NCBI GenBank assembly: GCA_001247695.2
Contig: LGRX02003598.1
Location: 1-64,000 of the forward strand
Reading direction: 5' to 3'
Length of the DNA stretch: 64,000 nt
Source of the DNA: Cymbomonas tetramitiformis
Lineage: Eukaryota; Chlorophyta; Pyramimonadophyceae; Pyramimonadales; Pyramimonadaceae
This document shows positions 4,714 through 23,700 of the stretch, piece by piece (within the stretch, counting starts at the first letter, position 1; the number at the start of each line of letters is the position of its first letter). The notes under the pieces were generated by a model, which saw only the letters and a list, made by a program, of their open reading frames with translations, searched no databases and was not told where the DNA came from. A program made the translations under genes and the position numbers.

Positions 4714-7122
4714 ATGACTTCATCCTCGGTTGGTACACCTGCCGTGGGCGCTAGAATGCGCCTTGATTCAATTTTTGCTAGGAACGTGGGTGCTCGCTAT
4801 ACGAGCACCCCGCAGTCAGCGAAGGTCGTGCTCGCTGCTGCTGACAGGACACGCGGCAATGCCGTGTTACAATCGTCCTGGGACACTGACGTTGTGAAGC
4901 GTGTCGCGAAGGACACATTGGGAACGAAGGCGTCTTCGTTTTCAGGGAGTGAACCACATCGTCAACTACTTTCTTGGGATTCCTTGGTGATTGCCTTGGA
5001 GGCATCTTTTGTCAACAAGGACAACGCCAACGAGGACATCTTTGACCTCGTGGACGTCACCAAAGAGGTTCACCCGATCTTCAACGACATTTTACTTCGT
5101 GCGTTGGTCTCTTTGACAACACCCCACTCTCCAGCTCGAAGGTGGGTTGACGCTTCGGCTCGGATTTCTCCGCGCGACGGTAAGCGTGCCCTCCTTGAGA
5201 TCACCAAGCGGCTGCTGCCGCCTGGGCATCGGCCGCTCCGCCATCACGAGGAGCTCTTGAGCATTTCTTTTGGGTCCTCTGTTGATCCAGAGCCCTTAGT
5301 GGCCCAATTTGATGAGTGCCTAAAGGCTATCGCGGCTAGCGGAGCAGGCCCTCTGGACGACGAGGCAGCCAAGAGGCAGCTCCTGGCGGCACTGGACACC
5401 GAATTTTACAAGGAGGTAATCACCCCGCTTCGCCTGGACACTGAGTTGGCGAAGGTGAGCATCGAGGAAGTTTACACTCACATTCTAGAGGTGTGGTGGT
5501 GTGCGAACCCTAATGGCCCTCCTACCCGCCCCAAGGCAGCCGCGCCTATCCCGACGCACACGCCTCTCGGATTGGCTTACGCAGGTGGGGAGCCGAGTGA
5601 CGTCTCGGGCTTCCTCGAGGAATTCGCTCGTATCATTGGTGAGGCCTCTGCCCTGCTTGCCTCCCTCCGTCATGACGAGCGCGAGATTGCACGAGACACG
5701 CCGCCGCCACGGAATGATTCTCACCGTCCGCATGGAGGCGGTGGTGTGAGATTTCCACCGTCCAAGTGGCGTGATGAGCGAAACCGTCGTACGGACGGTA
5801 AATTTCACGGACGTGACCGTCGCGTGGGATGGAAGCACCGCTTCGGAGCATCCCCACTCCCGAAAGGCGGGAATTGGCCTCAGGGTATTAGGGCGCAGGG
5901 TGCTAGGAGCATCTCGTTTCACTCTGCATCCTCGGCCTTCGTACAGGAGTGCCCACTCTGCCCTGGGCACTTTCACGACACTGCACGTTGCCCTGAGGTG
6001 TGTGGTTCGTGCGATGTTGACCTACGTGATGCCGCCATGGACTTGGACGAGGTGGTTTCGGCCTTCCAAACCGCCTTCGACAACGAGAACGACGAGGACT
6101 TCGCTGACTTATGCCACGAGCACGACCAGCCACTGGTGCGTACCGATCCTGAGCCCTTCACCTACCCGGTGCGGCACGACGTGGGATTACGTGCCCACTA
6201 TGCGGGCTTGGGTCATGGTGCTTCGGGCGACGGCATGGAGGGTGTGCTCTCGGATGCACGAGGCGTCCTTGAGTCCCTGCGGTCTGCGGCTACGGCTGCA
6301 CAGGTCGGTGGTGCTACCGCCGCTGGTAAGCAACCGCCGCTGCACATCGGTACTTTGTCTGTACCGCAGGTGGTGTGCGATGCGCCACCACCTGCCAATC
6401 ACGAGATCGGCGCTGGGCTCCACCCGGTTTCGGCATCGGACCCTGCTTCTTTCGGGTCCCCTTTCGAGGAGCCACTCCATGTCTCTTTTATGGACCGGGT
6501 AATGCCTGCATGCTCTAACACCTCCCTTAAATTGTGCTCAATTGACTCGGTACACGAGTCGATTCACCCGGGAGAGCTTTCCGTAATCGACGATGACGAC
6601 GACTCCGACGGTTTCTCACATTCCGGAGACGAGATTCCCTCGGCCCCACCGGCTGCACGGTCACGTGTCGGTGTGGCAACATTGCCGAGGGTCTTCTCCT
6701 TTGCATCTCTAGCCCTGCCCGCACTCATGTGTCTTGCATGTGTGTCAGCGGTTCAGGGTTCGGTGGTGCTCGATCGAGCCCCTGAATTCACCGCAGCGGT
6801 ACATCCCGCTGGGGTGACTGCCAACAGTCTGTCTGCCTTGCCGTACACTTTTCCTTTCGGCAGGCCTTTTCCTTTTGAAGTTTCGGCAGGCTTGGACTCG
6901 GATTTTTACTTTTGTGGATTCCTAAATTTGCTCTACGAGTCTTCTTCTGGACTCTGGCTTCTGGATTATGGTTCTGGCTTCTGGTTCTGGACTCTGGCTT
7001 CTGGACTCTGGTTCTGGATTATGACTTCTGGACTCTGGTTCTGGCTGAACATCTTTGACTCTGACAACATCTTCAGCACTGGTGAACTCTGCAGCTTTGT
7101 GGACCACTTTGAAAGTGGCTGA
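4714..7122 (+). CDS. Gag polyprotein of LTR retrotransposon, Copia-like (802 aa)
   Basis: Single ATG-initiated ORF. Residues about 150-265 follow the Copia-type gag (UBN2-like) pattern: DGKRALLEITKRLL, FDECLKAIAASG, AKRQLLAALDTEFYKEV, SIEEVYTHILEVW. A CCHC zinc knuckle (CPLCPGHFHDTARC, exact CX2CX4HX4C) lies at about residue 414, followed by an acidic, low-complexity region. The C-terminus has an unusual Trp/Gly/Leu-rich repeat (SGLWLLDYGSGFWFW and similar), encoded by a degenerate TCTGGACTCTGGTTC minisatellite. No pol domains follow before the 3' LTR. Function inferred: particle protein for packaging. Confidence 0.75.
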   Translation: MTSSSVGTPAVGARMRLDSIFARNVGARYTSTPQSAKVVLAAADRTRGNAVLQSSWDTDVVKRVAKDTLGTKASSFSGSEPHRQLLSWDSLVIALEASFVNKDNANEDIFDLVDVTKEVHPIFNDILLRALVSLTTPHSPARRWVDASARISPRDGKRALLEITKRLLPPGHRPLRHHEELLSISFGSSVDPEPLVAQFDECLKAIAASGAGPLDDEAAKRQLLAALDTEFYKEVITPLRLDTELAKVSIEEVYTHILEVWWCANPNGPPTRPKAAAPIPTHTPLGLAYAGGEPSDVSGFLEEFARIIGEASALLASLRHDEREIARDTPPPRNDSHRPHGGGGVRFPPSKWRDERNRRTDGKFHGRDRRVGWKHRFGASPLPKGGNWPQGIRAQGARSISFHSASSAFVQECPLCPGHFHDTARCPEVCGSCDVDLRDAAMDLDEVVSAFQTAFDNENDEDFADLCHEHDQPLVRTDPEPFTYPVRHDVGLRAHYAGLGHGASGDGMEGVLSDARGVLESLRSAATAAQVGGATAAGKQPPLHIGTLSVPQVVCDAPPPANHEIGAGLHPVSASDPASFGSPFEEPLHVSFMDRVMPACSNTSLKLCSIDSVHESIHPGELSVIDDDDDSDGFSHSGDEIPSAPPAARSRVGVATLPRVFSFASLALPALMCLACVSAVQGSVVLDRAPEFTAAVHPAGVTANSLSALPYTFPFGRPFPFEVSAGLDSDFYFCGFLNLLYESSSGLWLLDYGSGFWFWTLASGLWFWIMTSGLWFWLNIFDSDNIFSTGELCSFVDHFESG
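6935..7045 (+). repeat. Minisatellite CTGG(A/C)(T/C)TCTGG inside gag
   Basis: About 18-bp degenerate units (TTCTGGACTCTGG, TTCTGGATTATGG) in frame, encoding Ser-Gly-Leu/Phe-Trp repeats. Confidence 0.7.
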
Positions 7123-7326
7123 GTGGCTGTGAGATTGAGCTGTAGGAACTTAGCTTGTGAGCGGTATCCTAGCAGCAGTTTTAGGAAGAGACCGCCCTGG
7201 CTAAAGCACAGGCCTCCCTCTAGCAGTTTCCAGCCCCTAGCTGTTTGTTGTTTCGGAACAATTTGATTTGTCTGTGCTCCGCTCTCTGCCACCTGTAACA
7301 GCACTATGTACAGTCACAGGGTGGTG

Positions 7327-7518
7327 TGCTGGATTCAGTGACCCGTAGGTCATACCTTACTCTGACTCCCGTTAGCTGTACCAGTACTTGTACAGTGCTA
7401 GGTGACAGATACCTAGGTCACAGACGGCTTATATTCGTTTAACTCTTATAATCAGTTTACACTTGTATGAAAAGTATTCAGTGACCACTCGATATAATAC
7501 GGTATATTATATCCCACA
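7327..7518 (+). repeat. 3' LTR of the gag-only element
   Basis: 192 bp copy of 4151-4342; followed immediately by the target duplication AGTGT. Confidence 0.9.
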
Positions 7519-7527
7519 AGTGTGTAG

Positions 7528-7710
7528 AAATCGGTATCGATTGATTACGGTGTTAAAAAATCAGAATCGATTGATTAGTGCATTAGAAAAATCGAAATCG
7601 ATTTATTACTAGAAGAACTAATATCGAAATCGATCAATTTGTGAATCCAGAATAATCGGAATCGATCAATTGTTAATTTGAAATAATCGAAATCGATCGA
7701 TTAAGCCGAT
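7528..7710. repeat. Degenerate tandem repeat of AATCGAAATCGATYGATTA
   Basis: Five or so units of about 35-40 bp, each containing (A)ATCG(A/G)AATCGAT(C/T)(G/A)ATT. Matches the tract at 4077-4145. Confidence 0.7.
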
Positions 7711-7896
7711 CCCAACCGATACCGAACCTTGATCGACGGTAGAGTTCAAAATTAATTTGACTAAATGGACGACGATAAAGGGCAACGTCTATCACAAACA
7801 TTGTCAAGCACTGCTCAACATTGTCAAGCGGCGCTCGTGGATAGCTAATGAACTGTCGATCTTTGGGTTAGTAGGGGATCAACGCAAGACAAGTTA

Positions 7897-8888
7897 CAGT
7901 AGTCTCTCAAATATAAGAATATCCGATTATAAGAAACTCGCCCCGGAAGAACGAACTCAAAAATCGCTTAGAATACTTGCCCCAAACCTTTTTTTTTTGG
8001 TCATATTCTTAAATTTCGACCTGAAAAAAAAAAGAATATATAGGGCAGACTTCTCGAGGGGTATTCTTATTTTCATAACCGGTTTTGCGTGTTTAAGAAT
8101 AAACTCCCGATGTTGAATGTATAGATTGATATCGACTTGAATTGGGTGATGCAGGAAATAAACCCAGATTGGGACGTTGTGTCCGAGTGCTCCAGGAAAT
8201 GGAGGAGTACTGTACGTTGCACCTTTATTCCTAACACGATGCTAAAGGGTGCAACCAATAATGCTCGCAATGTAATATATTACTACATTTAATCTGGCAA
8301 AATGATACAGTATATAAGCCAAGCAAAGAGTGCCGCGCTAGATATTATGTGTTCATATTATAGCAAGGCAATGCTGTCGTAAAGTGTCACTGGGCAATAA
8401 TAAACACCCGCGATAAATGGTTGTAGGTGTAGGGACCTGTATCGGGACCTGTTGTGAAGGGGGCTCTGCCGGTGTTGGGGTATGTAACACGGACTTGATC
8501 ACCGAGCTGCGCAACTCTTCAAATTGAGACTAGCTAATTAATCCATCAGAGAAATCCTCTTTCAGAAGCCGAAGCCTCTTCCGTGGCTGGTCGTCCATAC
8601 TTATAGTGATTTTTTACAAGACACGCTTAATTTTGTCGATTCAAACTTGAGGCAGCCGCAAATTTCGAATCGCGAAATTAAGAATAAATGGGGCGATCGA
8701 TATTTGGTCGAATTTTAGGAATATTTATGCCCTTTTCCATGTTTAAGAATATATGGGGCAGATTCGCCCAATATGGATTCTTATCACGACCCACGTGTTA
8801 AGAATTAAATTGGCGAAATTCTCAAAATCTTTAGAATATTCACCCCCGCACCTGATTCTCCGACATTCTTATATCCGAGAGACTACTG
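7897..8888. mobile_element. Non-autonomous pogo/Tc1-mariner-type element
   Basis: Terminal inverted repeats CAGTAGTCTCTC(A/G)(A/G)ATATAAGAAT at both ends, flanked by the target duplication TA (7895-7896 and 8889-8890). Further TAAGAATA...GGGGC motifs lie inside both ends (7913-8060 and 8680-8850), a layout typical of pogo/Tigger-like families. The interior has no DDE transposase; the ORF crossing its left end is fortuitous. 992 bp in all. Confidence 0.8.
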
Positions 8889-8894
8889 TACTGT

Positions 8895-8990
8895 AGTTGT
8901 CAGGCACGGCGTGTCTTGACAATGCGCACGTTGGCGAACTTGTTGTTGAACGTTGGCGTGCGCATTGTCAAGACAGGCAGTGCCTGACAA
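8895..8990. repeat. Hairpin-forming inverted repeat
   Basis: GTTGTCAGGCACGGCGTGTC...CAATGCGCACG pairs with CGTGCGCATTGTC...GTGCCTGACAAC: arms of about 36 bp with three mismatches around a 20-bp loop. It lies between the TA of the pogo-like element and the first base of the YR retrotransposon. The related word AACATTGTCAAGC occurs twice near 7797-7832. Confidence 0.75.
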
Positions 8991-8993
8991 CTA

Positions 8994-9443
8994 GTGTAAA
9001 TAATTGAGAAATTTATTTCTAAATTATTTTGGAAGTACGGGGGAGAAAATTTCTGCTTGCAAAAAATGAGCCCGAGGCTCGACGAGGACATGTGAATTTT
9101 TTGCGGATTTTCTCCCGAGGATTTCTCAAGGCAGAGCCGAGCAATCCGCGGGGTCGACTTCTCTGTGTTCTGATTGGCTACGGGGTCACGGGGGAACCGT
9201 GACAGTCGAGTCAGATCTGTGTTCAGGCAGAGCCGGAACACAGAGGTGCTTTCTGATTGGTTGAGCGACATCTGTGTTCATGCGGAGCATGCGACACAGA
9301 TGTCCAGTTTGCAAGCTTGTGTCGCTTGGGCGGAGCCCGTGAAGATGAAGAGACTTTCGGAGCTTTTGAAATAAGCTGCGACAGTTCACTTCACTTCATT
9401 CTGCGAGAACTTCGGGCTCCGAGTCTACCAATTCAAAAAGTTT
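8994..9443 (+). repeat. Split direct repeat A1
   Basis: 450 bp beginning GTGTAAATAATTGAG and ending CAATTCAAAAAGTTT; copy at 19008-19457 with no difference noticed. Probably contains the element's promoter (inference from position). Confidence 0.9.
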
Positions 9444-9492
9444 TGAAATTTTCGAAAAAGTTCTCGTGGAATATTTTAAGCGTTAAGCAGCA

Positions 9493-12400
9493 ATGGCAGC
9501 AGCGAATGAAACAACGAACGTGGGATCGGAGAAGTGCGACACTGCGTACACAGACCTGCCGATAAATTTCACAACGTGCCTCAAACTTTTTGCACACTTC
9601 CCGGACCTAGCGCTCCTCACTACCCGAGATGGCCAACATGCGATTAGCCAGGTGAATGTCAGGGAACAATGCACAGATGCAACCCTCAACACAGACCGCA
9701 GTGCCATAGCAAAAGGCCTGGCACACCTATACCCATACCTATGTGAAGCCCAACCGAGGGACATAGCGAAACCGGGGGACTTCTATGACAGTCCTACAAA
9801 CAGACGACTGAAGCAACAATACAGGAACATGCCCAGGGAGGGACCGCTGGACTCCCACGCAATACGAACTAACCTCCCACGCCTCGACTCGGAGCAGCTG
9901 AGAGCAAAAATGACGGAATGGGAGGCGAGACTGGTCCCCAGGGAAGAGATTCACAGGCAACTCTCCCTGCACCCGCTTACAAGGATTAACGAAACGGAGA
10001 ATACCGGCCCGACACCGGGGGAGGAAGAGGAAGAACCCCAGCCCCTCCACACACGCTCACAAACCAAATGGATAGATGAAATAGACCCCATGGCCGAAAA
10101 GCTTGAGACAGGCTTCGAGAAAGGCCGAACGATTGACAAGCCGAAAGAGATTGTGGCAATGAGGACCCTACTCGTTGACCCAACAGACCCACACTCCCTA
10201 GTGACGCAGTACAGAACCCAGTGGAGACACTCAGAGGGGGATGACTCCTACTCTTGGAGTACAAGGGAGACCATAACCGACTACCTGAAACTAGCCAAAC
10301 GAAGGGGCCAAAGCGCGACCACCTTCCTAACCCTGAATAGAAGACTGCGAGCAAGGGGCTCCCAGGTGACCCACCCCACAGGCCTCAAAGAAATACTGGC
10401 CGGGAGGCCGCACCTGGGACAGGCCTGGCCCACACTACATGCAGAGAACCTAACACTGGACCCGACAGAAACCAACCCAGAACAAGACATTGTGGACAAC
10501 AGAGGGCACCACTGCCAGATACGACTGGAGGGGGAACTCGCCCACAGCTACCACAGGAATGGGAAATACATAGGCACCCTCACGAAAGAAAAGCTTCTCA
10601 GACTACACGAAAGGTACACCCAGGCAGTGGGTACCACACACCACCAAACCCCACACCAGAGTACACTACGCACCGAAATGTGGGAGGACCACAAAATACA
10701 GGTCTCCACGTTCGAGGAGGAAATAGGGCACCTCCTCATTAGGTACTCAAGCAAAGAAGAAAAGGAAGAACGGAAAAAGAACCTGCAAAACCATTGGACA
10801 TTCCCTGCCCAGATGCAAAGGGCACTACAACAGGCATTCGGAATTACCACCGAACTGTTCGCCTCACCCCTCAATGTCCACCACAACACCACAACGTACT
10901 ACGCCAAGTATGACAGAGACAAGGTGTTCGGGGCCAGAGGCTCGGCCTGGACAGCAAATTGGATGAAACTGGGAGCCTACCAGTTCAACCCAGAATACAC
11001 GCCACAGGACCTCAAAAAGGCACTGGACTTTGCCATAGCGGCCACCACCACACAAGAACCGGTGTTCGGGGTCGGGGTGTACCCGACATATGAGAAAACC
11101 CCGTACAGGAAGCTCTACAATGCACATGCGGGGCACCTAATACACGAACTATTAGAAATACCACAAGGCAAGTTCACATTTCTACCCCCTGACCACTGGA
11201 TGGGTGCCACCCACCAACAAGCGAAACAATGCAACTGGAACCTCCGGGTGCTGATAGTGGCCAACAAAGAAGGATGGCAAGCACACTGCGGGGACCCAGA
11301 CACTGCCGCAGACTGTATAAGGAGGGCACTCACAACCTGCCCGCAAAGTAAGGTCCGCACCACCTCAGCTGTCAAACAGCCGATGAGGGAGGCAAACCTA
11401 CACGATGCGAATGAACCAAACCAAGAAGTACGCACCCCCAGTGTAGACTGTGTGGTGGACACAAGACCATGGCAGCGATACGAACTCCCGGAAATTAAGA
11501 CAAAGGACATGACGAATGCAATGGGAAGAATGTGCAGCACAGGGCCACATTTGAGGAACGACCTCTGCCCCCAGTGCTGCAACGTACAAGCGGAAGTGGA
11601 AACTTGGTGGGAGGACAGCCACCTCCACGTGGAAGAAGGACCAGCCAAATGGGAACTCCTCCCCGGAAGCAGAGGAGGCAAATGGAACATACACCCCCCC
11701 ACCGTACAACAGGTGGTGGAAGCCAACACCTTACACACCAGACTTACAAGACAGAATGACGCCCAAACGATATGGGACAAAGTAGCGAGGTCAAAAGTTG
11801 TCAGATACCCCACGGACTTCTGGCCCGAACACGAACCGGGAGCCCAAGGAAGGAGATGGGAATTGACAAGAGACCAAACAGAGGACCCCAGGAACCAAGC
11901 CCCGAGGAACACACCAACCCAATTGACATACCCCTCCCCTCTAAGGGCACACAAGGCAACCTCGTACCTTTACACGGACGGGAGCAAAAGAGAAATAGAA
12001 ACAGAAGAAGGAGGCAAAGAATGGGCCTCAGGAGCTGCGGTATGGGACCCCAGGACCGGGGAAGGGGAGGCCCACATGATTCGATGGGAAGGTGAAGACC
12101 AAGAGGTGAACAGAGCGGAACTTCTCGCCATACAAAAAGCGGTGACGCTCCCGCCACCACCAAGTGGCAACGGACTCACCATTTGCACGGACAGTGCCAA
12201 CTCCATTAGACAACTGGAGAGCATGAGAACGAAACCCCACAACATGGAACACCACCAGCAAAGAGACCTCCTGTATGCCATACTGGTCAACATTGAAGCA
12301 TTAGTAGCAGCAGGGCACACTGTCTCACTGCTAAAAGTCAAAGCACACACGGGAATTGTGGGGAACGAAAAAGCCGACGAGGCAGCCAAACAAGCCTGTA

Positions 12401-14145
12401 CCACGGGAACCCTCACGGAAGCGTGGGATAATAACGAGACAATAAAAGTCAAGCCCGTGATACCAGACGAAGACTCGAACAGCAGAGAGCTAAAAGGAAA
12501 ACTCGCGGTACAAAAGTACGTAACCACACTACTCCGTGAACGGCAAGCCCAAGAAAACAGTAGACTCTCAGCGAAAATGACCGACCTCCAGGGAGAACCC
12601 TCAACCTGGACCCACCAACTGAAAACTGAGCGCAGCTTCAGATGGGAGGCGCACCATGACCAAGCGCAACAAACTGAAGAGGAACAAACGACAATACGGG
12701 ACCCGGTACCCAACCAGCAGCAGCAAGCCAACCAGACCCGGGACGAAGAAGACAGGCAAATAAAAGCCATGATGGAACAAACGGAGGAAGAGGAGATGCT
12801 CCTTATGCGGGAGGTGCAGGAGCACCAAGAATACCAAGAAACAGAGGGCAAAGGGGACCCCACCCGAGGAGACGAACCCGAACCCGCAGGGACACCACCC
12901 CCACCCTCCGAAGGGGAGGAAATATTTGAGGAACTCAACGAGCTCGCGGAGAAACTAGAAGTGACCCAAGAGGTACAAAATGACGATGAAATTTTTGACA
13001 TGCTAAATGAACTCATTGAGCAGCGGGAAAAGCCACAAGGGGAGCCGACAAAAGAAAGACAAGCTCACCATGACCGTGTCACAGAGGAGTCCAGAGTCCA
13101 TGCAGTAATGGAGGACCCGATGCCCAGAACAAGATGGAAACAGCGAAAACACGATATGGCACACAGCAGAACGGAAAAAAGGAACGCCCCCTCGGTTCAG
13201 GAGGGCGGGACCACAGACAGCTGGCTGAACGAAACAATGAAGCACCTCAAAGGAGACACGCCACTACACAAAGTAGCGAACGGCTTCTGGAAAAGAGCCA
13301 CATTTGCGGTACGAAAAACAATACTCAAATGCAGACTGAGAATACTGCCAGCACAAGACTATGAGACGGCGAAAAACTCAGCCGGAGGGAACGGGAAGTG
13401 CACCCTGGAAGGATGCGGACACAAAGGGGTGGACTACGCAAAGGGCTTCCTCATGAGGGTAGGGCATGCCCTAGGTGGATGCAACAACCCACAAATGCGA
13501 GGAATGTTCACGGACAGGGCAGATGCCCACGCAGATGAGCTAAAACACATACTTGACCACCATAGGAAAGGGGGATGCAAAGTACTCGCCTACACTGGAA
13601 AAAAGAGGGACCCAGGGATTAAGCCAAGGGTACTCCCAAATTACATACTCACCAGGGGGCAATGCAGACACGACGGGAAGGACAACCCAGGCAGAAACGA
13701 TGGGCCCGACACAATACCGAGTTTTGTAGACATAGTCATGATAGAGGGTCTAGAAGACCTGGAGGACGGATGGGAATGCACACAACAGGAAGCACCAGCA
13801 AGGGTAAGAAACCTACACCTCATTGAAGTGGCCCACACCGATGACGAAAAATGGGGACCCAAACTCCTGGAAAAATACAAGAAATACGGACCGCTGCTAC
13901 AATTGCTACGCAGGCACGGATTCCGTGCCAAACTTCATGTGTTTGCAGTGGGCAGAACAGGCACGGTGTACAAACACAACCAAGACATACTCGAGCAACT
14001 TGGACTCAACAGAAAAGAGGCCACACAGGCACTACAGAGAATACACGACCTGACAGTAAACTATGCACACAGCACCTACCAGCTATACAGAAAGCTCAGA
14101 CAAGGAAAACAAGAGGAGGAGAAAGACAAGAACCACCCAGTATAA
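9493..14145 (+). CDS. YR-retrotransposon ORF1: PCIF1-like methyltransferase, RNase H and R2-type endonuclease-like region (1550 aa)
   Basis: Uninterrupted ATG ORF. Residues about 445-560 match the PCIF1 (cap-adenosine N6-methyltransferase) core: ELFASPLN at 454-461, then YYAKY and VFGARGSAW, then YQFNPEY. The catalytic NPPF of PCIF1 is here NPEY (499-502), so activity is doubtful. FTFLPPDHW and LRVLIVANKEG match the following strands. Residues about 825-975 form a complete RNase H with D829 (YTDGS), E876 (RAELLAI), D900 (CTDSAN) and D962 (GNEKADEAA). A Glu-rich low-complexity linker follows. Near the C-terminus are a Cys/His cluster (C1303...GHALGGC) and PD(T)..(E1445)VAH...EKYKKY, resembling the restriction-like endonuclease end of R2/CRE-type elements. 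No reverse transcriptase motif is present here. Confidence 0.75.
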   Translation: MAAANETTNVGSEKCDTAYTDLPINFTTCLKLFAHFPDLALLTTRDGQHAISQVNVREQCTDATLNTDRSAIAKGLAHLYPYLCEAQPRDIAKPGDFYDSPTNRRLKQQYRNMPREGPLDSHAIRTNLPRLDSEQLRAKMTEWEARLVPREEIHRQLSLHPLTRINETENTGPTPGEEEEEPQPLHTRSQTKWIDEIDPMAEKLETGFEKGRTIDKPKEIVAMRTLLVDPTDPHSLVTQYRTQWRHSEGDDSYSWSTRETITDYLKLAKRRGQSATTFLTLNRRLRARGSQVTHPTGLKEILAGRPHLGQAWPTLHAENLTLDPTETNPEQDIVDNRGHHCQIRLEGELAHSYHRNGKYIGTLTKEKLLRLHERYTQAVGTTHHQTPHQSTLRTEMWEDHKIQVSTFEEEIGHLLIRYSSKEEKEERKKNLQNHWTFPAQMQRALQQAFGITTELFASPLNVHHNTTTYYAKYDRDKVFGARGSAWTANWMKLGAYQFNPEYTPQDLKKALDFAIAATTTQEPVFGVGVYPTYEKTPYRKLYNAHAGHLIHELLEIPQGKFTFLPPDHWMGATHQQAKQCNWNLRVLIVANKEGWQAHCGDPDTAADCIRRALTTCPQSKVRTTSAVKQPMREANLHDANEPNQEVRTPSVDCVVDTRPWQRYELPEIKTKDMTNAMGRMCSTGPHLRNDLCPQCCNVQAEVETWWEDSHLHVEEGPAKWELLPGSRGGKWNIHPPTVQQVVEANTLHTRLTRQNDAQTIWDKVARSKVVRYPTDFWPEHEPGAQGRRWELTRDQTEDPRNQAPRNTPTQLTYPSPLRAHKATSYLYTDGSKREIETEEGGKEWASGAAVWDPRTGEGEAHMIRWEGEDQEVNRAELLAIQKAVTLPPPPSGNGLTICTDSANSIRQLESMRTKPHNMEHHQQRDLLYAILVNIEALVAAGHTVSLLKVKAHTGIVGNEKADEAAKQACTTGTLTEAWDNNETIKVKPVIPDEDSNSRELKGKLAVQKYVTTLLRERQAQENSRLSAKMTDLQGEPSTWTHQLKTERSFRWEAHHDQAQQTEEEQTTIRDPVPNQQQQANQTRDEEDRQIKAMMEQTEEEEMLLMREVQEHQEYQETEGKGDPTRGDEPEPAGTPPPPSEGEEIFEELNELAEKLEVTQEVQNDDEIFDMLNELIEQREKPQGEPTKERQAHHDRVTEESRVHAVMEDPMPRTRWKQRKHDMAHSRTEKRNAPSVQEGGTTDSWLNETMKHLKGDTPLHKVANGFWKRATFAVRKTILKCRLRILPAQDYETAKNSAGGNGKCTLEGCGHKGVDYAKGFLMRVGHALGGCNNPQMRGMFTDRADAHADELKHILDHHRKGGCKVLAYTGKKRDPGIKPRVLPNYILTRGQCRHDGKDNPGRNDGPDTIPSFVDIVMIEGLEDLEDGWECTQQEAPARVRNLHLIEVAHTDDEKWGPKLLEKYKKYGPLLQLLRRHGFRAKLHVFAVGRTGTVYKHNQDILEQLGLNRKEATQALQRIHDLTVNYAHSTYQLYRKLRQGKQEEEKDKNHPV

Positions 14146-14227
14146 ATTGTCCCAACATGGCCGCCACTCGGGGCGGTCCGGCCCAGAGTAGGGCCGGGGA
14201 AATCAATTTACTCATACGCCCGACGGG

Positions 14228-14299
14228 CGTGGTTTTTTCTTTTTCTTTTTTCTTTTTTCTTTTTCTTTTTCTTTTTTCTTTTTCTTTTTTCTTTTCACA
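14228..14299 (+). promoter_or_regulatory. Polypyrimidine tract ending in CACAG: candidate 3' splice site
   Basis: About 70 bases of (CTTTTT)n directly followed by TTTTCACAG and then the gag ORF. This is the textbook form of a 3' splice acceptor, placed between ORF1 and gag. It could let gag-pol be made from a spliced transcript. No donor was identified, so this is inference. Confidence 0.4.
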
Positions 14300-14311
14300 G
14301 ACCTGCGTGCA

Positions 14312-15440
14312 GTGACGCGGATGCTGGCAATGGCGAATAATGCGGAGAAGAAGTGTGACGCCGTAGCACCACGTATGCGTTTCTTTGAGGAGGCGGAGCT
14401 GGAGAGCGCAGTGGAGGTTCTGAACTTCGGGCTGGCGTCCGGCGTTTTTACGCCCGCGGTGCGAGACGGGCAAGGTAAGGTGACGGAGAAGGCGATCTTG
14501 AAGCCTCCGGCGAGGGACAGACCGGCTTTCGTAGCAGCGCTGGGGGAGGCAGCAGAGCAATGCGTGGAGGTGTTGGTGACGCGATTGAAGTTCAAGCTCC
14601 CGGAGGTACCGCAGCAGTCGGCGTCAGGGCACCGTTCCGGGCGACAAGCGGGTGCGGGAGGACGAAAGTGAGAATGAAGAGGAGGAGGAAGCGGATGACA
14701 CTGTGTTTGAGGAGGGGGAAGAGGTTGCGACGGCGGAGAGGACCAAGCGAGGTAAGAAAGGTGCAGGTATCTCGCCGGATGATCTGGCGCGGGACGAGGA
14801 CCTGAAGCGACGGATGGACGCGTTCCTGATGCAGAAGGTGGCGGGCTATGTGCCCGCAACCGGAAAAGGTGAAAGCTCGTTCCTCGCTCTGAGGGAGGCG
14901 CCTTGCGCGAAGCTGAGGAAGCAGATTGTCGCTGACCCAGTTTCGGGAGAGATGAGATCGGTGTCGGTTTCGCGTCTGACCAAAGCGCAGTTCTTGGCGC
15001 AAAACATGAAGATGGTAGAAAAGATTGAGCCTGAGTCGGAGCGGGAGCACTTTTTGAACTATGTTTCTTGGATTGTGAGCCTGGACAACAGGTATGCGTG
15101 GTCGGACCTGTATGATTTCGACACGCAGGTTCGGGATGACATGATTGCGGGTAGGATTGTGTCGTGGGACCCAATACAGTTGGGTTTCCGTTTCCAGTAC
15201 CAGTTTCTGGAGACCCTGGGGGAGGCGAGCCGGCGTCTTCTCGACGACAAGGGCAGCCGAGGGAAGGGTACTCGTGACACCCGGGACAAAGGTGGAAAAG
15301 GTAAAGGTGACCGGAAGGACGCGGTGTGTGACTTCTTTCAACTCGCGCGCGGGTGTAAGAAAGGGAAGGATTGTGGATTTATCCACGCGTGCCGCAAGTG
15401 CAAGTCGGCAGCGCACGGGGCGTCGGAATGCGAAAAATGA
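14312..15440 (+). CDS. Gag-like protein of the YR retrotransposon (one frameshift)
   Basis: Starts in one frame (14312-14671) and continues in another (14652-15440), the change lying near 14620-14650. After an acidic segment (ENEEEEEADDTVFEEGEE) come a helical domain and two zinc-binding motifs: a CCCH finger (CDFFQLARGCKKGKDCGFIH, CX8CX5CX3H) and directly after it a CCHC knuckle (CRKCKSAAHGASEC). The ORF ends with TGA at 15438-15440, but the same frame continues as pol. First gene of the gag-pol-YR block. Confidence 0.7.
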
Positions 15441-15446
15441 CTAGCA
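15438..15446 (+). promoter_or_regulatory. In-frame TGA-CTA-G between gag and pol: candidate readthrough site
   Basis: The gag stop is followed in the same frame by CTAGCAGTGGAAGAG and an open pol frame. UGA followed by CUAG is a known favourable context for stop-codon readthrough. Gag-Pol synthesis by readthrough is therefore suggested but not shown. Confidence 0.45.
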
Positions 15447-17746
15447 GTGGAAGAGGAGGAACGGGAGGAGGAACGGGAGCCGGTTTCGCCTGTACTGAGG
15501 GAACCGGCAGGAGGAAAGGAGGAGGCAGCGCGGAAGCAGGCGCGCAAGCCGGAGAGGACCTGGACAGCGAAGTTTTTGGCGTTGTTCACCGCGGTGGGAG
15601 TGTCGCTGGCGTCATACGGCGTGCCGGAGGCAGACCACCGCCAGTACCTGCAGGATGTGGAGGCGGTGGGCGCGGTGGTGTCGCCACTTACGCTGCGGGC
15701 GGACAGATGGGCGCAGGCAGCCTGGGGGTTGCCGGGCGCGGAAGCAGTGGTTCGGGGGATTGCTACGGGTTTCTCGTGGCAGCAGGCTGAGCCAGAGGAG
15801 TTCTTCCGAGTGGAGAACTATGTGCCACCGGAGCACGAGGAGAAGGTCGAGATGAAGCTGCAAGAGGAAGAGGCAGCGGGAAGGATGGTGCGCACAGATG
15901 TTGAAAGTGTGCCCGGTGTGTCTGCTCTTGGGATTGTACTAAGAGTTGTGGATGGAAAGGTGAAAGAGAGGATTGTGCACGACCTGTCTAGACCTGTAGG
16001 ACTGTCTGTGAACGACAATTGTGAGATTGACAAGAGAAGGTTCCAGTCTGTGGAGGAAGCCTTTGGTCTGTTGCAGCCATACAGTTTTATGGCCAAGATT
16101 GACTTGAAAAGCGCGTACAGATTTGTGGGGATTGCTGCGCCACTGTGGAGGTTCTTGGCGAGTGAGTTCGGAGGAGTGCTGAGGATTGACACGAGGTTTC
16201 CCTTCGGGGTCAAAGCTGCCCCGGGGCTCTTTCACGACATAACTCAACTGGTGAAATTGATGATGCAGCAGAGAGGCTTCCCGGGGATTGTGGTGTACTT
16301 GGATGACTTTATTTGGTGGCTGACTCGGAAGAGGATTGTCAGCGGGGGTTTGAGATGCTGCTGGAGCTTGTTGAGTATTTGGGATTTGAGGTGGCCCCGG
16401 AGAAGGTGGAGTCACCTAGGCAGGATTTGGTCTTCTTAGGAATTAGACTGCAGTCCAACTACTCAGGACTGGGGATTGTGACGATGAGTGTGGAGGAGAG
16501 CCGAGTCCAGAAGGTGGCCTTAGCCTGCAGAGAGATGGCAGTGCTGAAGACAGTGAGAGTAAAGGAGGTGCAGAGGTTGGTGGGCCAGTTGATGTTTTGT
16601 GCACGGGTAGTGTACGGGGCCAAGATGTTTCTGAGGTCCGGGTATGACTTTATCGGGAGGGCTGGCAAGATGAGGAGGTTCTATGACACGGTACCGAGGG
16701 ACCTCAGCCGGGACTTGATGTGGTTGGCCAAAATTTTGGAGGAGTACAATGGTCAGGCGGTGGTGCTGAACCGAAGGCCAGTGGTGAGAGACTTCTTTGC
16801 AGTGGATGCTGCTGGGGAAGAAGCAGTGGACGGAGGAATGGGTGGTTTCTTCGGGGGAAGATGGTTCGCAGTGAAATGGGAGGAGGTGAGGCAATGGAAG
16901 GTACAACCTTTTAGCCCCTTCAGAGATGTGGCCTCGAGCCACATCAACTATTTGGAGCTGTTCGTGATTTTCTGGGCCCTGAGGAAGTGGGGGCACCTGT
17001 TGAGAGGGTGTAAAGTTGTCATGTGGAGTGACAATGAAGCAGCCCGATTGATGACAAGGAACCTGTGGGGGAAGGCAGCTTTCATTCCTTTGCTAAAGGA
17101 GATTTTGTTGCTGACTATCAGACATGATGTGAGGCTGGTGATGAAAAGGATTTCCACAAAGGCCAATGACTTGGCGGATGCTCTGAGTAGGAGTCAGATG
17201 GGAAGGTTTCAGGACCTGCTGAAGGGGTGGTCGAGGAGAGAGGCCCCGAGGGACCTGGATGACTGGATGGTGCAGGACTGGTTGTGGGACAAAATTAGGC
17301 CGCTCGGGCCCTTTGCAGTGGATGCATGCTGTGATGAAGTGGGAGCGAACTCCCGGTGTTTCCGTTGGTGGTCCAAGGAGGACTCTTGTTTGATGAAACA
17401 GTGGAGGGGGCTGAATGTGTACTGCAACCCACCCTTCTCCTTGCTGTGGGAAATTCTGACCCATTTCCTCAGGGAGAAGCGAGCAGCGCCCAACACAACC
17501 TCTGCAGTGTTTGTGCTACCCTTCTGGCCAACTGAGAGATTCTGGCTGGAGCTTGTGGTGCCAGCCATTGAGGCTGGGTTGTTTGTTATCCTTGAGTACA
17601 TCCCAGTAGACACAGATGTGTTCACCTCACCGAATGGGGTTAGGGGATTGAGAAAGGACTGTGGCCCCACGAGGTGGCCAGTAGTGCTGGTAGCCTGCCC
17701 AGTGACAGCCCCGAAGGGGAAGGCATGGAAGAGAATTGGTGTGTGA
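15441..17746 (+). CDS. Pol of the YR retrotransposon: RT, RNase H and Dam-like methyltransferase (one frameshift)
   Basis: 15441-16310 and about 16310-17746 are in different frames; the break falls just after the RT catalytic motif VVYLDDF (YLDD at 16296-16307). RT motifs before it: IVHDLSRP, MAKIDLKSAYR, RFPFGVKAAPGLF. RNase H follows: FFAVDAAGEE (D), INYLELFVIFWAL (E), VVMWSDNEAA (D), ANDLADALSR (D). Then a Dam/N6-adenine-methyltransferase-like domain as known from DIRS elements: FAVDACCDEVGANS, VYCNPPFSLLWEI (intact NPPF) and VFVLPFWPTERFW. The 3' end overlaps the recombinase ORF by 22 bases. Confidence 0.82.
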
Positions 17747-18831
17747 CTGACCATGGAGGGGGGAAGAGGGGCAATGCAGAGTATGCAAAGCCCAAGGAAT
17801 GGCTGAGAGCCAGGTGGAACTTCATCCTGAGTGTTGCTGATGCGGAGAACACAAAGAAGAACCACACGACCGGCCAGAGAGCCTTTGTCAGATTTATGCT
17901 AGCCTTCGGAGAAGGACCGGTGGTACCGGTGTCAGATGAGGATCTAGCGATGTTTTATGTGTTTCAGTCACAGACTTGTAAAGTCTCTACCTTGAAGAGC
18001 TATACAGCCGGTGTGAGAAGATTGCACCTAGAGGCGAAGTATGAGTGGGTGCCTGTTAGCCACAGATTCCAAGTAGCTCAGACTATGAGAGGACTGAAGA
18101 GGCTGCTAGGAGATGAAGTAAAACAGAAGCTCGCAATTACATTGTATATACTTGCAAGAATGTATCAAGTAATGGATTTTGATGACTGTAACATGGTAAC
18201 TTTGTGGGCAGCAATGTTGACTGCTGTGTTGTGCTTGCTTCGAAAAGACAATGTCTGTGTTGGGAAAGTTGATGCCTTTAATGTTAGGCGGGTCCTTAAA
18301 AGAAAGGACTTTGAGATGAGGAATGAGACTGTGTGGGTGACACTAGTGTTCTCGAAAGTGATCCAATTTGAGGAAAGGACACACAAAGTGGCCATGAGGG
18401 CCACAGGAGGAATGTTGTGCCCGAAACGGGCCTTAGCCAAGTGTTTTGAGCTAACCCCGGCAGAGCCGGAGAGCCCGGCTTTCCTGTGGAAGTCAAGGGG
18501 CAGGACTGTGCCCATGACACACGGAGTGTTCGTGGGGGAGATGAAAAAGCTGATCCGGAAGATCGGTCTTGACCCGAGTCAGTACTCGGGTCACAGTTTT
18601 CGGAGAGGGGGGGCCACGGTGGCCTTTAACCTCGGGGTGGACCACCTTTTGATCAAACTGCAAGGAGACTGGGTCTCCAATGCATACCAGAGGTATGAGC
18701 AGTTGACGAAGGCACGGAGGCTGGAGCTGCCAAAGAGGCTGGCTGCCAGGATGAAACAGATTGAGTGTAAGTGGAAGTGCTTGGGTAAGCACAAGTCTGG
18801 CAGCAAGCAACTTCGGCTGTTGGGTAGCTGA
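17725..18831 (+). CDS. Tyrosine recombinase (YR) of the retrotransposon (368 aa)
   Basis: ATG at 17725, just inside the end of pol; an upstream in-frame GTG at 17674 is a less likely start. Conserved catalytic residues of the family are visible: R173 (CLLRKDN), H290 and R293 (GHSFRRGGAT), W316 (QGDWVSN, the His/Trp position) and Y324 (YQRYEQL). The N-terminal half resembles a core-binding SAM-like domain (TKKNHTTGQRAFVRFML, STLKSYTAGVRRLH). It would integrate the circular cDNA by site-specific recombination in place of an integrase. The ORF is intact. Confidence 0.9.
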   Translation: MEENWCVTDHGGGKRGNAEYAKPKEWLRARWNFILSVADAENTKKNHTTGQRAFVRFMLAFGEGPVVPVSDEDLAMFYVFQSQTCKVSTLKSYTAGVRRLHLEAKYEWVPVSHRFQVAQTMRGLKRLLGDEVKQKLAITLYILARMYQVMDFDDCNMVTLWAAMLTAVLCLLRKDNVCVGKVDAFNVRRVLKRKDFEMRNETVWVTLVFSKVIQFEERTHKVAMRATGGMLCPKRALAKCFELTPAEPESPAFLWKSRGRTVPMTHGVFVGEMKKLIRKIGLDPSQYSGHSFRRGGATVAFNLGVDHLLIKLQGDWVSNAYQRYEQLTKARRLELPKRLAARMKQIECKWKCLGKHKSGSKQLRLLGS

Positions 18832-18845
18832 AGCGCCAGCCAGTT

Positions 18846-19007
18846 GGGAGGAAGGAACTTGCAGAAGCCGTAGGCCTGCAGTTGGGCTGACTCTTCGGCA
18901 ACCCTGGTTGCAGACCACCTCCCTAGAAGTCCTCAAAGTTTGTTGTGAAACAAAGGTGCTTCTGAGCACCACCTATGTCTCGGAAATTATCTCCCTGGGA
19001 AGTACTT
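18846..19007 (+). repeat. Split direct repeat B1
   Basis: 162 bp, GGGAGGAAGGAACTTGCAG to GGGAAGTACTT; copy of 19475-19637 with a few differences (ACCTATG versus ACCCATG, one indel). Confidence 0.9.
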
Positions 19008-19457
19008 GTGTAAATAATTGAGAAATTTATTTCTAAATTATTTTGGAAGTACGGGGGAGAAAATTTCTGCTTGCAAAAAATGAGCCCGAGGCTCGACGAG
19101 GACATGTGAATTTTTTGCGGATTTTCTCCCGAGGATTTCTCAAGGCAGAGCCGAGCAATCCGCGGGGTCGACTTCTCTGTGTTCTGATTGGCTACGGGGT
19201 CACGGGGGAACCGTGACAGTCGAGTCAGATCTGTGTTCAGGCAGAGCCGGAACACAGAGGTGCTTTCTGATTGGTTGAGCGACATCTGTGTTCATGCGGA
19301 GCATGCGACACAGATGTCCAGTTTGCAAGCTTGTGTCGCTTGGGCGGAGCCCGTGAAGATGAAGAGACTTTCGGAGCTTTTGAAATAAGCTGCGACAGTT
19401 CACTTCACTTCATTCTGCGAGAACTTCGGGCTCCGAGTCTACCAATTCAAAAAGTTT
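19008..19457 (+). repeat. Split direct repeat A2
   Basis: 450 bp copy of 8994-9443, joined directly to B1. Confidence 0.9.
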
Positions 19458-19474
19458 CCCACACCCGCCCGCCC

Positions 19475-19637
19475 GGGAGGAAGGAACTTGCAGAAGCCGT
19501 GAGGCCTGCAGTTGGGCTGACTCTTCGGCAACCCTGGTTGCAGACCACCTCCCTAGAAGTCCTCAAAGTTTGTTGTGAAACAAAGGTGCTTCTGAGCACC
19601 ACCCATGTCTCGGAAATTATCTCCCTGGGAAGTACTT
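19475..19637 (+). repeat. Split direct repeat B2, right end of the YR element
   Basis: 163 bp copy of B1. Separated from A2 by 17 bp of C-rich sequence. Ends at AGTACTT, the same word that joins B1 to A2. Confidence 0.88.
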
Positions 19638-20485
19638 CCTCGTTTCAACCGCGCTCCGCACACGCTGCCCACACGCGCGCCTGCTGCATCTGATCTCATC
19701 CATGCCACTTCCTGCGAGGCATAAAATAAACGACATGTGACACGTGGAAGGGGCCGCTCCTCACCCAATCGCGACATCGTGACACCGCAGACCGCACCGG
19801 CGCGGGTCCTTCGTCCTATTGGATATTGGTAATAGCTAGTATACAAATTAAATAACGGGCAAGCAAGCAAGCCGCTTGCGTAGCGTTTATAAAGAAACTG
19901 CTCATAATGGTGTTATTTCGCTACTAATCGCTATAAACTACACTTTAAAATTATACCATAGAACTACGGTATAGTAACATATTAGTGAAAGGGACATTCG
20001 ATTGTATCTAGAGCACTAGCTAGGGCGAAGGCATCGGACGTCTTCAAACTGGCCATGTAGCATATCATAGCATAGCCGCCTGAAATATTGTTATGGCACA
20101 CCGAAACACCCGAGGTTATGAAGGTATGCCACCAGTTCCTTTACGGCCAGGTGAAATTTTAGGCTTGACAACAGCCAGGCCAACCGCCTCCTTCGACGAC
20201 TCGCAGTCGCATATCGGGTGTTCATCCGTCTCAGTCTACGTGTTGCAAACACGTGGTGCTCATAATCGGTACACGTTAGAGCTTCAGACTGTATGAATGT
20301 TGCAAGGCCTGTTCGGATCGGCCGTTGGCACTGGGCGATCATAAAGTCCTGATACGAGTGTTCTCCTAAGTCTCAGTAAAAAAAAGCTTGTGTACGTGCA
20401 GTTCGGCGAGGGTCGTTTCGTGTTGCTGGCTATCCAGCGCTGCTGACTTTTGTATCATTTATTGGGGAACTGAGCAGGGGCTTCG
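19638..20485. other. Upstream region of the Fea1-like gene
   Basis: No long convincing ORF. Contains TTTATAAAG near 19888 (TATA-like), and probably the true first exon and promoter of the gene downstream, because the signal-peptide exon has no ATG of its own. The exact start could not be placed. Confidence 0.4.
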
Positions 20486-20767
20486 GTGGCTTACTCACGG
20501 CTTTCAGCAGAGCTGGAGTTTCATCGTGCCTTGGTGTGCCTTGTTGTACTATTTGCCGCTCATGCAGCCTCTGCGGACACCACTGGACAGAGCTATTACA
20601 CTATGGCTGGTTCAAACTACACACCCACAAGCGACGTTGAAGGTAACCTCGCCGTCACAGATGCGGTGTCTGCTCTGAAAGCGGCACTCGACGGTTCCGA
20701 CTGGTATGCGGCCAAGCAAGCTTACACTGATATTGTCCACGACTCGGTCGCTACTGTGAACTTACAG
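20486..20767 (+). other. Fea1-like gene: signal-peptide exon
   Basis: Encodes a hydrophobic leader with a likely cleavage after AHAASA, then SNYTPTSDVEGNLAVTDAVSALKAAL, the start of domain 1, ending VNLQ at donor CAG|GTGGGT. The same domain start recurs in every C exon as STYTPAANVSGSRAVTDDVCAMK. Confidence 0.7.
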
Positions 20768-23700
20768 GTGGGTGCCATCACTGCACACTCGTGCCCTCAG
20801 CGTAAAGACGGCTGAAACGATGTAAAACGTGCAACTCCTGAAGGTTCACGTGGGCGGTCAACGGACTGGCCTGGCTACGCGCATACGCCAGTCCACTGTA
20901 AGTACAAGAGCGACCCGGCGATACGTGAACTGAATGACATTATTCGCCTTCAAATATACACTGAAAGACTTTTAAGGAACAGCAGACTAAGGGGAGCTCG
21001 CACAACGGGCACCTCGGTGAACCAAACTGCTGAGTGAGACAATTTCCAACGACTTTTCGGGTGGTGGCTGCAAGCGCCACTCAGTGGGTAAACACATGGT
21101 TCACCAATGTCTGGACTACAATCTGACTATTTTGGCCAAATACCCAACCCTAGTAGTGGTTAGGGTTTCGCTGGATTTGGAACGACAGTACTCGACCTCA
21201 GGACGAGAGCTTTCCAGCGTCGATTTGAAATACCGATTCCCTAGGGACCCTGGTAGCGAAGAGAAAAACGGCATCCTGGGACATTGCACGACTCCAAACG
21301 AAGCGATGCCCAGTGATGACGATTGGAGTAGATTTCTAATCTGAGTTTCTCCCTCGAATCGCCAGTAGTGGTAACCACTGGCAAGGCATCCAAGTGGCAG
21401 ATTGAAGTGCCCGGACCAAAGCCACTTATAGTACTCACTGCCTTTAAGTCGCTGCCTATATTCTGGAAATCGAATATGTGTAAAGTTCTTCAAGCTACAG
21501 CCAAGTTACTCCCGCAAGCCATGTGTAACAAAATTGGGTTCTTCAGGTCATCGGCGCGCTTGGTCACTCCTGATAACAATGTCAATGCACCATGTCAAAA
21601 GTACGTGATCGGTTGCATGCAGGAACTAGCGAAGGAGAACTTCACCGGGATGGACCAGTTCGACACTTTCAGTGTCTATTATGACTCGGCCACCTGGATC
21701 GATGATTTGGCGCTGATGACGCTGGACGGCACGTCGCCGTGGACAGATGACTCAGCGCGCAAGGAGGGCTGTGAGACGACTGTGATGAATGCGCTGCTGA
21801 CGAACTCGGCGCTGAACAACCTGTACAAGGCCATGAAAATGGTGAGCCGGCCACAGAGTCCCGGCGGGCACTCCTCGCTCGCTCGCTCGCGGCGGCGGCG
21901 GCCACAGTGCAGCACAGCACTTGTGCAAGAGTGGGCTGTGTGTAGCTGAGCGGGGAGATCTGTCAGCTGGAACAAACAAAGCGGGTGGATGTGATCTTGC
22001 TGCGCATCCTGGGGGGCTCGAGAGTGGGGTTGATGCGAAGGGGCGTATGCGTGCGTGCGTATGACACGCTTTGGCGCCGGTGATAAGGTAAGCACAGGCT
22101 GGCAGCCGAGATGGGGCCCATAGATATGTTTGGACTACAACCTCACTATCTTGGGCAACTGCCCTGAGGCTGTAGTTAGGGTTTTGCTCGGGACGACAGT
22201 AGTCGGAAGTATTAAGCGAGAGGAACATTTGCAGATGATGTTTTAAAAAGAACCCTCTTCATTCCCAAAGGACCCTAGCGATCGAAGAGAGAATGGCATT
22301 TGGCCTCGCGCATGCCTCCACGCGAAAATGGATGACCGGACTGATGACGCGGTCATACGATTTAGGTTGACGGATCCTACTCACATCGCCATCAGTGGGC
22401 AACCACAGACAAGCAAGGCATCCAAATGGCAGATTGAAGTGTCGGGGTCAAAGCCACATATGGTGCTCAGTGATTAGGGTTTTAGGGTTCAAAGCCTCAA
22501 CGCTCACAGGTGCGCCATCTCAGCCAATGATTGATGCATGCGCGCGGAGTGATCAAGGGGCTTTGGGCGGGGCCGGGTGCCGGTGTACCACGGCAGGGTG
22601 AGGACGGCGAGAGGGGCGACAGCCAGGCTCCCGCCACATGGGATCTGGGCTGGGCGTACTACACAGGGGCGGAGTCCTCCTGCGCACCGTACGCCACCGC
22701 CGACAAGCGCGCCGGGAACTACGGCACGCTGTCCACCACCGAAGGTCTGGAGAGCACCGCGAAAGCCAACGAGCAGATCATGGCGGCGCTGGTATCCGGG
22801 CAAGCCGCGCTCAAGGCGGCCTCGTATGACGGCAGCGCGGTGACGGCTGCATATAACAGCGTGCTGCAGGGGATCCAGGCGACGTACATCCAGGCGAGCA
22901 TCCGCTATGCGTACAAGATGGATATCGACTTGAAGGAGGGCCTGTCATTCCAAGAGCATCGCGGGGAGGGATGGGGTTTCTGGCGGGTGGTGGAACCGTA
23001 CATTGCCGCCATAGACTCAATGGGCGCTCAGGGCGTCACTGACATGTGAGTGCAGGCCCGGCGGTGACAAGCGATGCATGCCGAGATGTGTGGTGGCTGG
23101 TGCGCAGCTGCGCTCTGTGCAGTGGGTGGGTAGGGTGATGCTTGGGCTGGGGCGATGGGTGGGCAGTAGAGTGAGGGAAAGACGAGGGGTACATGCTTGC
23201 TGCTCTTAGGGACGTGACCTGCAGTGCCGTAGCGCTCACGTAAGGTGCAGAGCGTGATGCTGGCAGGTGGTGGACTGTGTGTGGGGGGGAGGGGTATTGT
23301 GATGGAGGGAGCCCCACCATTTGCTTGTGTACGATCCAGGGTAGTCATGCATGTGGATGGCAGCACACTTATGGTGGGTGGTGTGTGGGAGGTGAGGGCG
23401 CAGGTATGATCTGAGCAAGGAGCTTTCGGCCAGCACCAGCACTGACTACTACTTCTTCTGCCTGACAAAGAATGTGATCATGGCGGCGCTGCCGGACGGA
23501 GTGAGCAGTGATGACATTGGCGAGCTGGAGGGCACGGAGAGCATCGACTGCAGCGGAGTGACCCAGTCACCTCCGGCCGGCACCGCGGTTTCACCGCCAC
23601 CCGCAGGTCATGCTGACTGCACATGCGCTTGCTGCGAGGCGTCGGACTGCCCTGTGTACACGTACAGCACGTTCTACACGGGCAGCGAGGCGGCTTGCTC

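Follow-up and report, generated by a model that had tools for sequence, protein, structure and literature searches.

A PCIF1-like methyltransferase domain in the polyprotein of a Dualen-like LINE family of Cymbomonas tetramitiformis, with a truncated copy probably nested in a tyrosine-recombinase retrotransposon

The DNA analysed here, referred to as the window, comprises 64,000 nt of the green alga Cymbomonas tetramitiformis (positions 1 to 64,000 of contig LGRX02003598.1, assembly GCA_001247695.2). At 9493-14145 of its forward strand it holds an open reading frame (ORF) of 1550 aa, here called ORF1, which was confirmed as an open frame and whose product combines a PCIF1-like methyltransferase core, an RNase H, and a Cys/His-rich end with the fold of an R2-type endonuclease. 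An earlier note, made from the sequence alone, ascribed ORF1 to a tyrosine-recombinase (YR) retrotransposon. According to the present analysis, it is very probably the 3' part of a 5'-truncated long interspersed nuclear element (LINE) that sits in the gag of a PAT-type YR retrotransposon, the gag start codon having been joined to the LINE frame by chance. On this reading, the locus holds the following features:

9493-9559, + strand: start of the YR gag ORF, the first 22 codons of ORF1; ends in the 5' copy of the target-site duplication (TSD) and runs on into the rest of gag in all 29 other loci read
9549-9559, + strand: 5' TSD copy, CACAGACCTGC
9560-14295, + strand: 5'-truncated LINE copy, the final ~4.7 kb of a ~14-kb element, including its 3' untranslated region (UTR) and T/C tail
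9562-14145, + strand: C-terminal stretch of the LINE polyprotein, continuing the frame opened by the gag start
10693-11412, + strand: PCIF1-like methyltransferase core, aa 401-640 (Pfam match aa 401-539)
10858-10875, + strand: FASPLN motif
10987-10998, + strand: NPEY motif
11965-12399, + strand: RNase H with D-E-D-D motifs, aa 825-969 (Pfam E 4.2e-15)
13399-14127, + strand: CCHC-like Cys/His motif and R2-type restriction-like endonuclease fold, aa 1303-1545
14146-14232, + strand: LINE 3' UTR
14233-14295, + strand: LINE 3' tail, (T5-6C)n
14296-14306, + strand: 3' TSD copy, CACAGACCTGC

The interpretation of 9560-14295 as an insertion is based on its TSD, on the boundary at 9560 that its relatives share, and on the empty sites in other gag copies. 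The duplication that flanks the LINE copy is 11 bp long. In the genome searches, all made in the window's own assembly (851.7 Mb, 25,745 contigs), 40 of 1082 candidates for the query 9493-10493 were scored, and all 39 matches besides the window start at base 68 of the query (window base 9560), directly after the first CACAGACCTGC. When the gag that follows the second TSD copy was used as query, 40 of 249 candidates were scored and yielded 30 loci, one of them the window. At the insertion point, gag is uninterrupted in all 29 other loci read (gapped alignment; identity 0.75-0.96; largest gap 9 nt); the junction is free of gaps across 50 nt in 26 of them, and L031, L033, and L035 align only with gaps. 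None of these 29 YR copies carries ORF1, the outcome that the earlier note had named as speaking against its own reading and for a one-off insertion.

At the 3' end, the UTR and (T5-6C)n tail seen in the window recur, followed by differing flanks, in five of eight fetched LINE copies, namely those with a stop at the window's place; the comparison covered these five, the other three (C6875, C266, and C18371) having an earlier in-frame stop. Since the same UTR and tail precede different flanks elsewhere, the T/C tract is taken as the 3' tail of the inserted LINE, and the tract together with CACAG at 14220-14300, once considered as a 3' splice site for gag, was dropped in that role. The insertion into gag presumably occurred by target-primed reverse transcription, and it appears to be young, since the nearest of the eight fetched copies differs from the window LINE at only 15 of 4586 nt.

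Ownership of ORF1 by the YR element itself, which would make it a hybrid of YR and non-LTR elements, is suggested by the fact that a single open frame begins at the gag start codon and extends across the LINE part, and by the gene models P0021 and P0038, which also combine PCIF1 with Dam or YR parts. However, these are gene models in a genome rich in transposable elements, and the TSD, the shared boundary, the 29 empty gag sites, and the LINE's own UTR and tail make such ownership extremely improbable. The proposed hybrid is thus replaced by the ordinary nesting of a LINE in a YR gag. As had been noted, RNase H and a methyltransferase fold each occur twice at the locus, but they belong to two elements rather than to one. 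P0038 and P0021, as models that fuse a PCIF1-LINE stretch to Dam/YR or other retroelement parts, are possibly further nested insertions.

Longer members of the LINE family reveal what the window copy has lost. P0017 (2996 aa) and P0020 (3233 aa) hold an apurinic/apyrimidinic-type (APE) endonuclease, a reverse transcriptase (RT), PCIF1, and RNase H, all above Pfam cutoffs. For P0017, the APE endonuclease scores 29.6 bits with PF14529 (cutoff 27.4) and 25.3 bits with PF03372 (cutoff 24.5), and the RNase H matches PF00075 with E 9.5e-15; its RT is of the non-LTR type (RVT_1 E 5e-28), with R2 proteins as the best PDB matches (E 4.9e-19). Among the eight fetched copies, three (C1447, C17649, and C22807) are open throughout the fetched frame, and C1447 and C17649 each hold one unbroken ORF of 4552 aa from the first Met, with 76 differences between them in 12,582 nt. 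The polyprotein is ordered as a weak Ulp1-like protease match, APE, RT, the PCIF1-like core, RNase H, CCHC, and the R2-type endonuclease. A restriction-like endonuclease of R2 type was found at the LINE C-terminus: the fold matches, in agreement with the non-LTR origin that the earlier note had seen in the Cys/His and endonuclease end, and sequence similarity to the R2 endonuclease is marginal (E 0.0083). The complete D-E-D-D RNase H claimed for ORF1 is likewise borne out by its Pfam match. Compared to the R2 retrotransposon endonuclease, that of the LINE differs in that an APE endonuclease is present in the same protein.

The 5' end common to C1447 and C17649 lies 9397 nt before the position matching base 9560, from which a LINE length of ~14.1 kb is derived. 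A candidate TSD of 10 bp flanks C1447, 11 bases outside this common start; no clear TSD was found around the ends of C17649. Judged by eye from its flanks, the C17649 copy (L044, L056) is a full-length LINE that interrupts a further PCIF1-bearing element resembling P0029 (family C) within the PCIF1 region of the latter, a case of nesting among relatives. Of 150 scored copies, 22 have a frame free of stops for 4631 aa or more, a stop-to-stop length in which flank may be included. Twelve more long-ORF copies (L083-L094), compared over 301 nt each at the expected 5' end, all lack the C1447/C17649 5' sequence (0/12), and the 5' end is therefore claimed for C1447 and C17649 only. Eleven of the twelve are mutually similar there (L083 being more diverged), and L093 is different. 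The 5' region of the LINE thus comes in variants. The family is recent and many-copied; all named protein relatives come from C. tetramitiformis (12 of 15, 10 of 11, and 14 of 23 matches in separate searches), for whose 914.3-Mb assembly a published table gives 38.5 Mb of LINEs (PMC10675990).

The assignment of the methyltransferase core to PCIF1, which the earlier note had proposed with NPPF changed to NPEY, is upheld by three kinds of comparison. ORF1 aa 401-539 match the Pfam family PCIF1_WW (E 5.8e-17), and PF12237 is above cutoff in the window ORF and the LINE proteins, with E values from 1.4e-14 to 4.6e-20; a profile of the core searched against the PDB matches PCIF1 alone; and the predicted structure of the region around ELFASPLN, with the Rossmann fold of PCIF1, matches PCIF1/CAPAM best, over the methyltransferase core only, in a comparison unable to list chains ranked low by Foldseek. 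The domain resembles the cap-adenosine N6-methyltransferase PCIF1/CAPAM in its Pfam family, predicted fold, FASPLN and D..FG.RG blocks, and N-P-x-aromatic motif, while it differs from it by NPEY for NPPF, by WW and helical domains without a match, and by its place inside a retrotransposon polyprotein. The third motif residue is Glu in 17 of 18 FASPLN-bearing proteins, and the eighteenth ends before the motif. Even P0022, a distant LINE protein whose core is only ~36-38% identical, retains NPEY and the FASPLN loop. Between its RT and RNase H, this protein holds the PCIF1-like core with NPEY and, beside it, a cytosine-C5 methylase (PF00145, E 5.2e-11); an OTU-like stretch and a 2A-like NPGP were also seen by eye. 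Searches for relatives in virus contigs (21 pattern matches) and prokaryote genomes (93 pattern matches) confirmed none. Upstream of the core, ORF1 aa 239-256 (10207-10260), QYRTQWRHSEGDDSYSWS, look chromodomain-like by eye; the Pfam scan gave no match there.

Few parts of the polyprotein are as well conserved as the PCIF1 core. When family A (P0017) is compared with family B (P0020), identity is 63% in the core, 56% in RT, 47% in RNase H, 37% in APE, and 25-39% in the linkers; between family A and P0018, it is 96% in the core, 95% in both RT and RNase H, and 75-89% in the linkers; and between family A and P0022, 36%, 31%, and 33% in core, RT, and RNase H, respectively. No stop codon occurs in the 150 best-scoring PCIF1 regions of either family. 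For the ratio of nonsynonymous to synonymous substitution (dN/dS), 150 of 2220 family B candidates were scored, with the PCIF1 region fetched from 16 copies and the RT region from 10. Among the 120 PCIF1 pairs, the 8 with the greatest divergence all include C17572; their dS is 0.47-0.52 and their dN 0.006-0.014, giving dN/dS of 0.011-0.026. The pooled ratio of the corresponding proportions (pN/pS) is 0.033 in 73 pairs with pS >0.10 and 0.045 in 46 closer pairs, one pair having pS 0. For RT, where 45 pairs were compared, the 8 with the greatest divergence all include C25309 and give a ratio of 0.032-0.056, and the pooled pN/pS is 0.068 in 29 pairs with pS >0.10 and 0.122 in 13 closer ones, with three pairs at pS 0. 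The copies had been ranked by PCIF1 protein score, which favours a low PCIF1 dN, and the pairs are not independent; for these reasons, the figures are not taken to show stronger selection on PCIF1 than on RT. They do show strong purifying selection, as pairs with only 3-7 nonsynonymous differences at a synonymous divergence of ~0.5 substitution per site do not arise otherwise. The PCIF1-like domain is therefore kept by selection inside the LINE polyprotein and is not debris. Figures from three family A copies were set aside: the domain values of dN/dS rest on 2-8 changes each (for PCIF1, 2 nonsynonymous and 4 synonymous, summed over the three pairs), and those for the N-terminus and the whole ORF are unreliable, since copies that differ in these regions were compared position by position.

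With regard to known elements, Kojima and Fujiwara reportedly described Dualen/RandI of Chlamydomonas in 2005, and these elements are said to hold a cysteine protease as well. The Dualen/RandI non-LTR group has two endonucleases, one APE and one restriction-like, in the same element as RT and RNase H (PMC4640811). The LINE shares this set and differs by its PCIF1-like domain between RT and RNase H, and by a 4552-aa polyprotein in an element of ~14 kb. By domain content, the family thus appears to be Dualen-like with a captured PCIF1 domain. Methylases in retrotransposons are already known, including Dam in DIRS and DNMTs in LINE, DIRS, and Gypsy elements (PMC5890265). Among these, SymbioLINE-Dnmt and SymbioDIRS-Dnmt3 (de Mendoza et al. 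2018, PMC5890265) likewise have a captured methyltransferase under purifying selection. They are, however, cytosine-C5 methylases, in the LINE mostly encoded by a separate upstream ORF, and PCIF1 goes unmentioned in the main text of that paper. A full-text literature search, in which few subscription papers were covered, found no retrotransposon already reported to carry PCIF1.

As a rule, the proteins of LINEs bind the RNA that encodes them, so that a PCIF1-type core would most simply act on, or hold, the element's own capped transcript. In the proposed mechanism, the domain would act on this RNA within the ribonucleoprotein, where an adenosine methyltransferase with an altered motif IV (NPEY) may mark a cap-proximal or other adenosine of the template, and the mark would help translation, stability, or self-recognition. 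That the domain is an active adenosine methyltransferase is predicted with about even chances, and is favoured because the S-adenosylmethionine (SAM) loop and N-P-x-aromatic are retained. The fuller proposal, that the LINE encodes its own cap-adenosine N6-methyltransferase, which marks its own RNA in cis (as N6,2'-O-dimethyladenosine, m6Am, or N6-methyladenosine, m6A) and is required for retrotransposition, is advanced only tentatively. Given that P0022 has the same domain beside a cytosine methylase, the capture would be old.

Several observations weigh against this reading. NPEY stands in place of NPPF in 12 of 12 rows of alignment A1 and in 16 of 16 fetched family B copies, and mutating NPPF reduces or abolishes the activity of PCIF1 (PMC6318281, PMC10544176), although the mutants named there alter N553 and F556, which correspond to the N and Y of NPEY here. 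Neither helical (cap-binding) nor WW domains were recognised by Pfam scans, and the fold match is limited to the methyltransferase core; cap specificity is therefore only putative. The model of the core is of low confidence (predicted local distance difference test, pLDDT, 53.8; predicted template modelling score, pTM, 0.54). As for the architecture, the protease match of P0017 is weak (PF02902 Peptidase_C48, E 0.0038, 17.5 bits vs. a cutoff of 20.7), the APE match of P0022 stays below cutoff (19.4 vs. 24.5), and, among the eight fetched copies, three have an early stop and two are closed upstream within the fetched stretch.

There is a somewhat less than even chance that the domain is a pseudo-enzyme, whose fold is kept to bind the cap or RNA for template recognition, for reaching the 5' end, or for translation. 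This would fit the Glu found at the third residue wherever the motif is seen, and methyltransferase-independent roles of PCIF1 have been reported (PMC12896973). On the other hand, the N, first P, and aromatic residue of motif IV are retained together with the FASPLN loop, at places where dead enzymes would usually drift, and P0022 retains them too at its low identity. Methylation of DNA (target or cDNA) or of other substrates, in the manner of the Dam-type methylase of the host YR element or of the dinoflagellate retrotransposon DNMTs, has in its favour that the known accessory methylases of retrotransposons are DNA methylases (PMC5890265, PMC6338049), and that a C5 methylase adjoins the domain in P0022; it is improbable, however, as the family of this domain methylates RNA caps and a DNA-acting member was not found in this analysis. 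A decaying passenger without function, close to the remnant that the earlier note had considered, could account for the altered catalytic motif, but hardly for the dN/dS of the most diverged family B pairs, for a core 96% identical between family A and P0018 beside linkers at 75-89%, or for best-scoring regions without a stop in 150 of 150 cases per family, and is barely credible under such strong purifying selection.

DNA methylases (Dam type, DNMTs) are already known from retrotransposons, but the papers searched describe no LINE polyprotein with a conserved methyltransferase fold of the RNA cap-adenosine kind. If active, the domain would be an epitranscriptomic writer encoded by a mobile element; if inactive, it would represent a selected cap- or RNA-binding use of the PCIF1 fold. 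Should the LINE mark its own RNA, retrotransposons would become players in RNA cap modification. The NPEY domain also offers a natural test of the role of the third NPPF residue, and the presence of both endonuclease types in one large LINE (4552-aa ORF, ~14 kb) bears on the shift of LINEs from R2-type to APE-type endonucleases.

The host of the insertion has these parts:

8994-19637, + strand: PAT-type tyrosine-recombinase retrotransposon, with split direct repeats A1-ORFs-B1-A2-B2
8994-9443, + strand: A1 repeat, identical to A2
14307-15440, + strand: remainder of the YR gag, in two frames in the window copy, with a sub-threshold CCCH zinc finger
15447-16439, + strand: first part of the YR-element RT (RVT_1 E 0.0012, below cutoff)
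16313-17746, + strand: continuation of the YR RT/RNase H, and Dam-type adenine methylase (PF05869 E 1.1e-7)
17674-18831, + strand: YR-element tyrosine recombinase, by position and a motif seen by eye
18846-19007, + strand: B1 repeat
19008-19457, + strand: A2 repeat, identical to A1
19475-19637, + strand: B2 repeat, with one mismatch and one 1-nt gap relative to B1

By the rule given in PMC4157794, YR elements that combine a methylase with split direct repeats belong to the PAT type, and the host is classed accordingly because both are present. It resembles the PAT-type YR retrotransposons (Pat1/Toc3/Kangaroo) in its Dam-type methylase and A1-B1-A2-B2 repeats, and differs in nothing seen except the LINE sitting in its gag. 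In the Pfam scan, the methylase reaches 32.1 bits with PF05869 (cutoff 28.1), the matches of RT and RNase H are sub-threshold, and the ORF at 17674-18831, which shows an HxxR..W..Y pattern by eye, has no YR match. The window copy has reading-frame changes in gag (14307-15440) and RT (16313-16439), and the queried gag stretch is ~6-11 nt longer in most of the other 39 scored gag copies. An inverted repeat at 8889-8998, with 42-nt arms that are 90% complementary and 26 nt apart, touches the left end of the YR element with its right arm.

Elsewhere in the window, an 802-aa ORF at 4714-7122 has a gag-like Cys/His stretch (CPLCPGHFHDTARCPEVC), and its end consists of short repeats (6940-7046). Repeats up to 25000 (5000-25000 examined) are 85-97% alike, and repeated units with similar ORFs occupy 21368-30494, with MSDFDYYYFCLTKNV at 25336, 27641, and 29700, and GDSQAPATW at 22531 and 24697.
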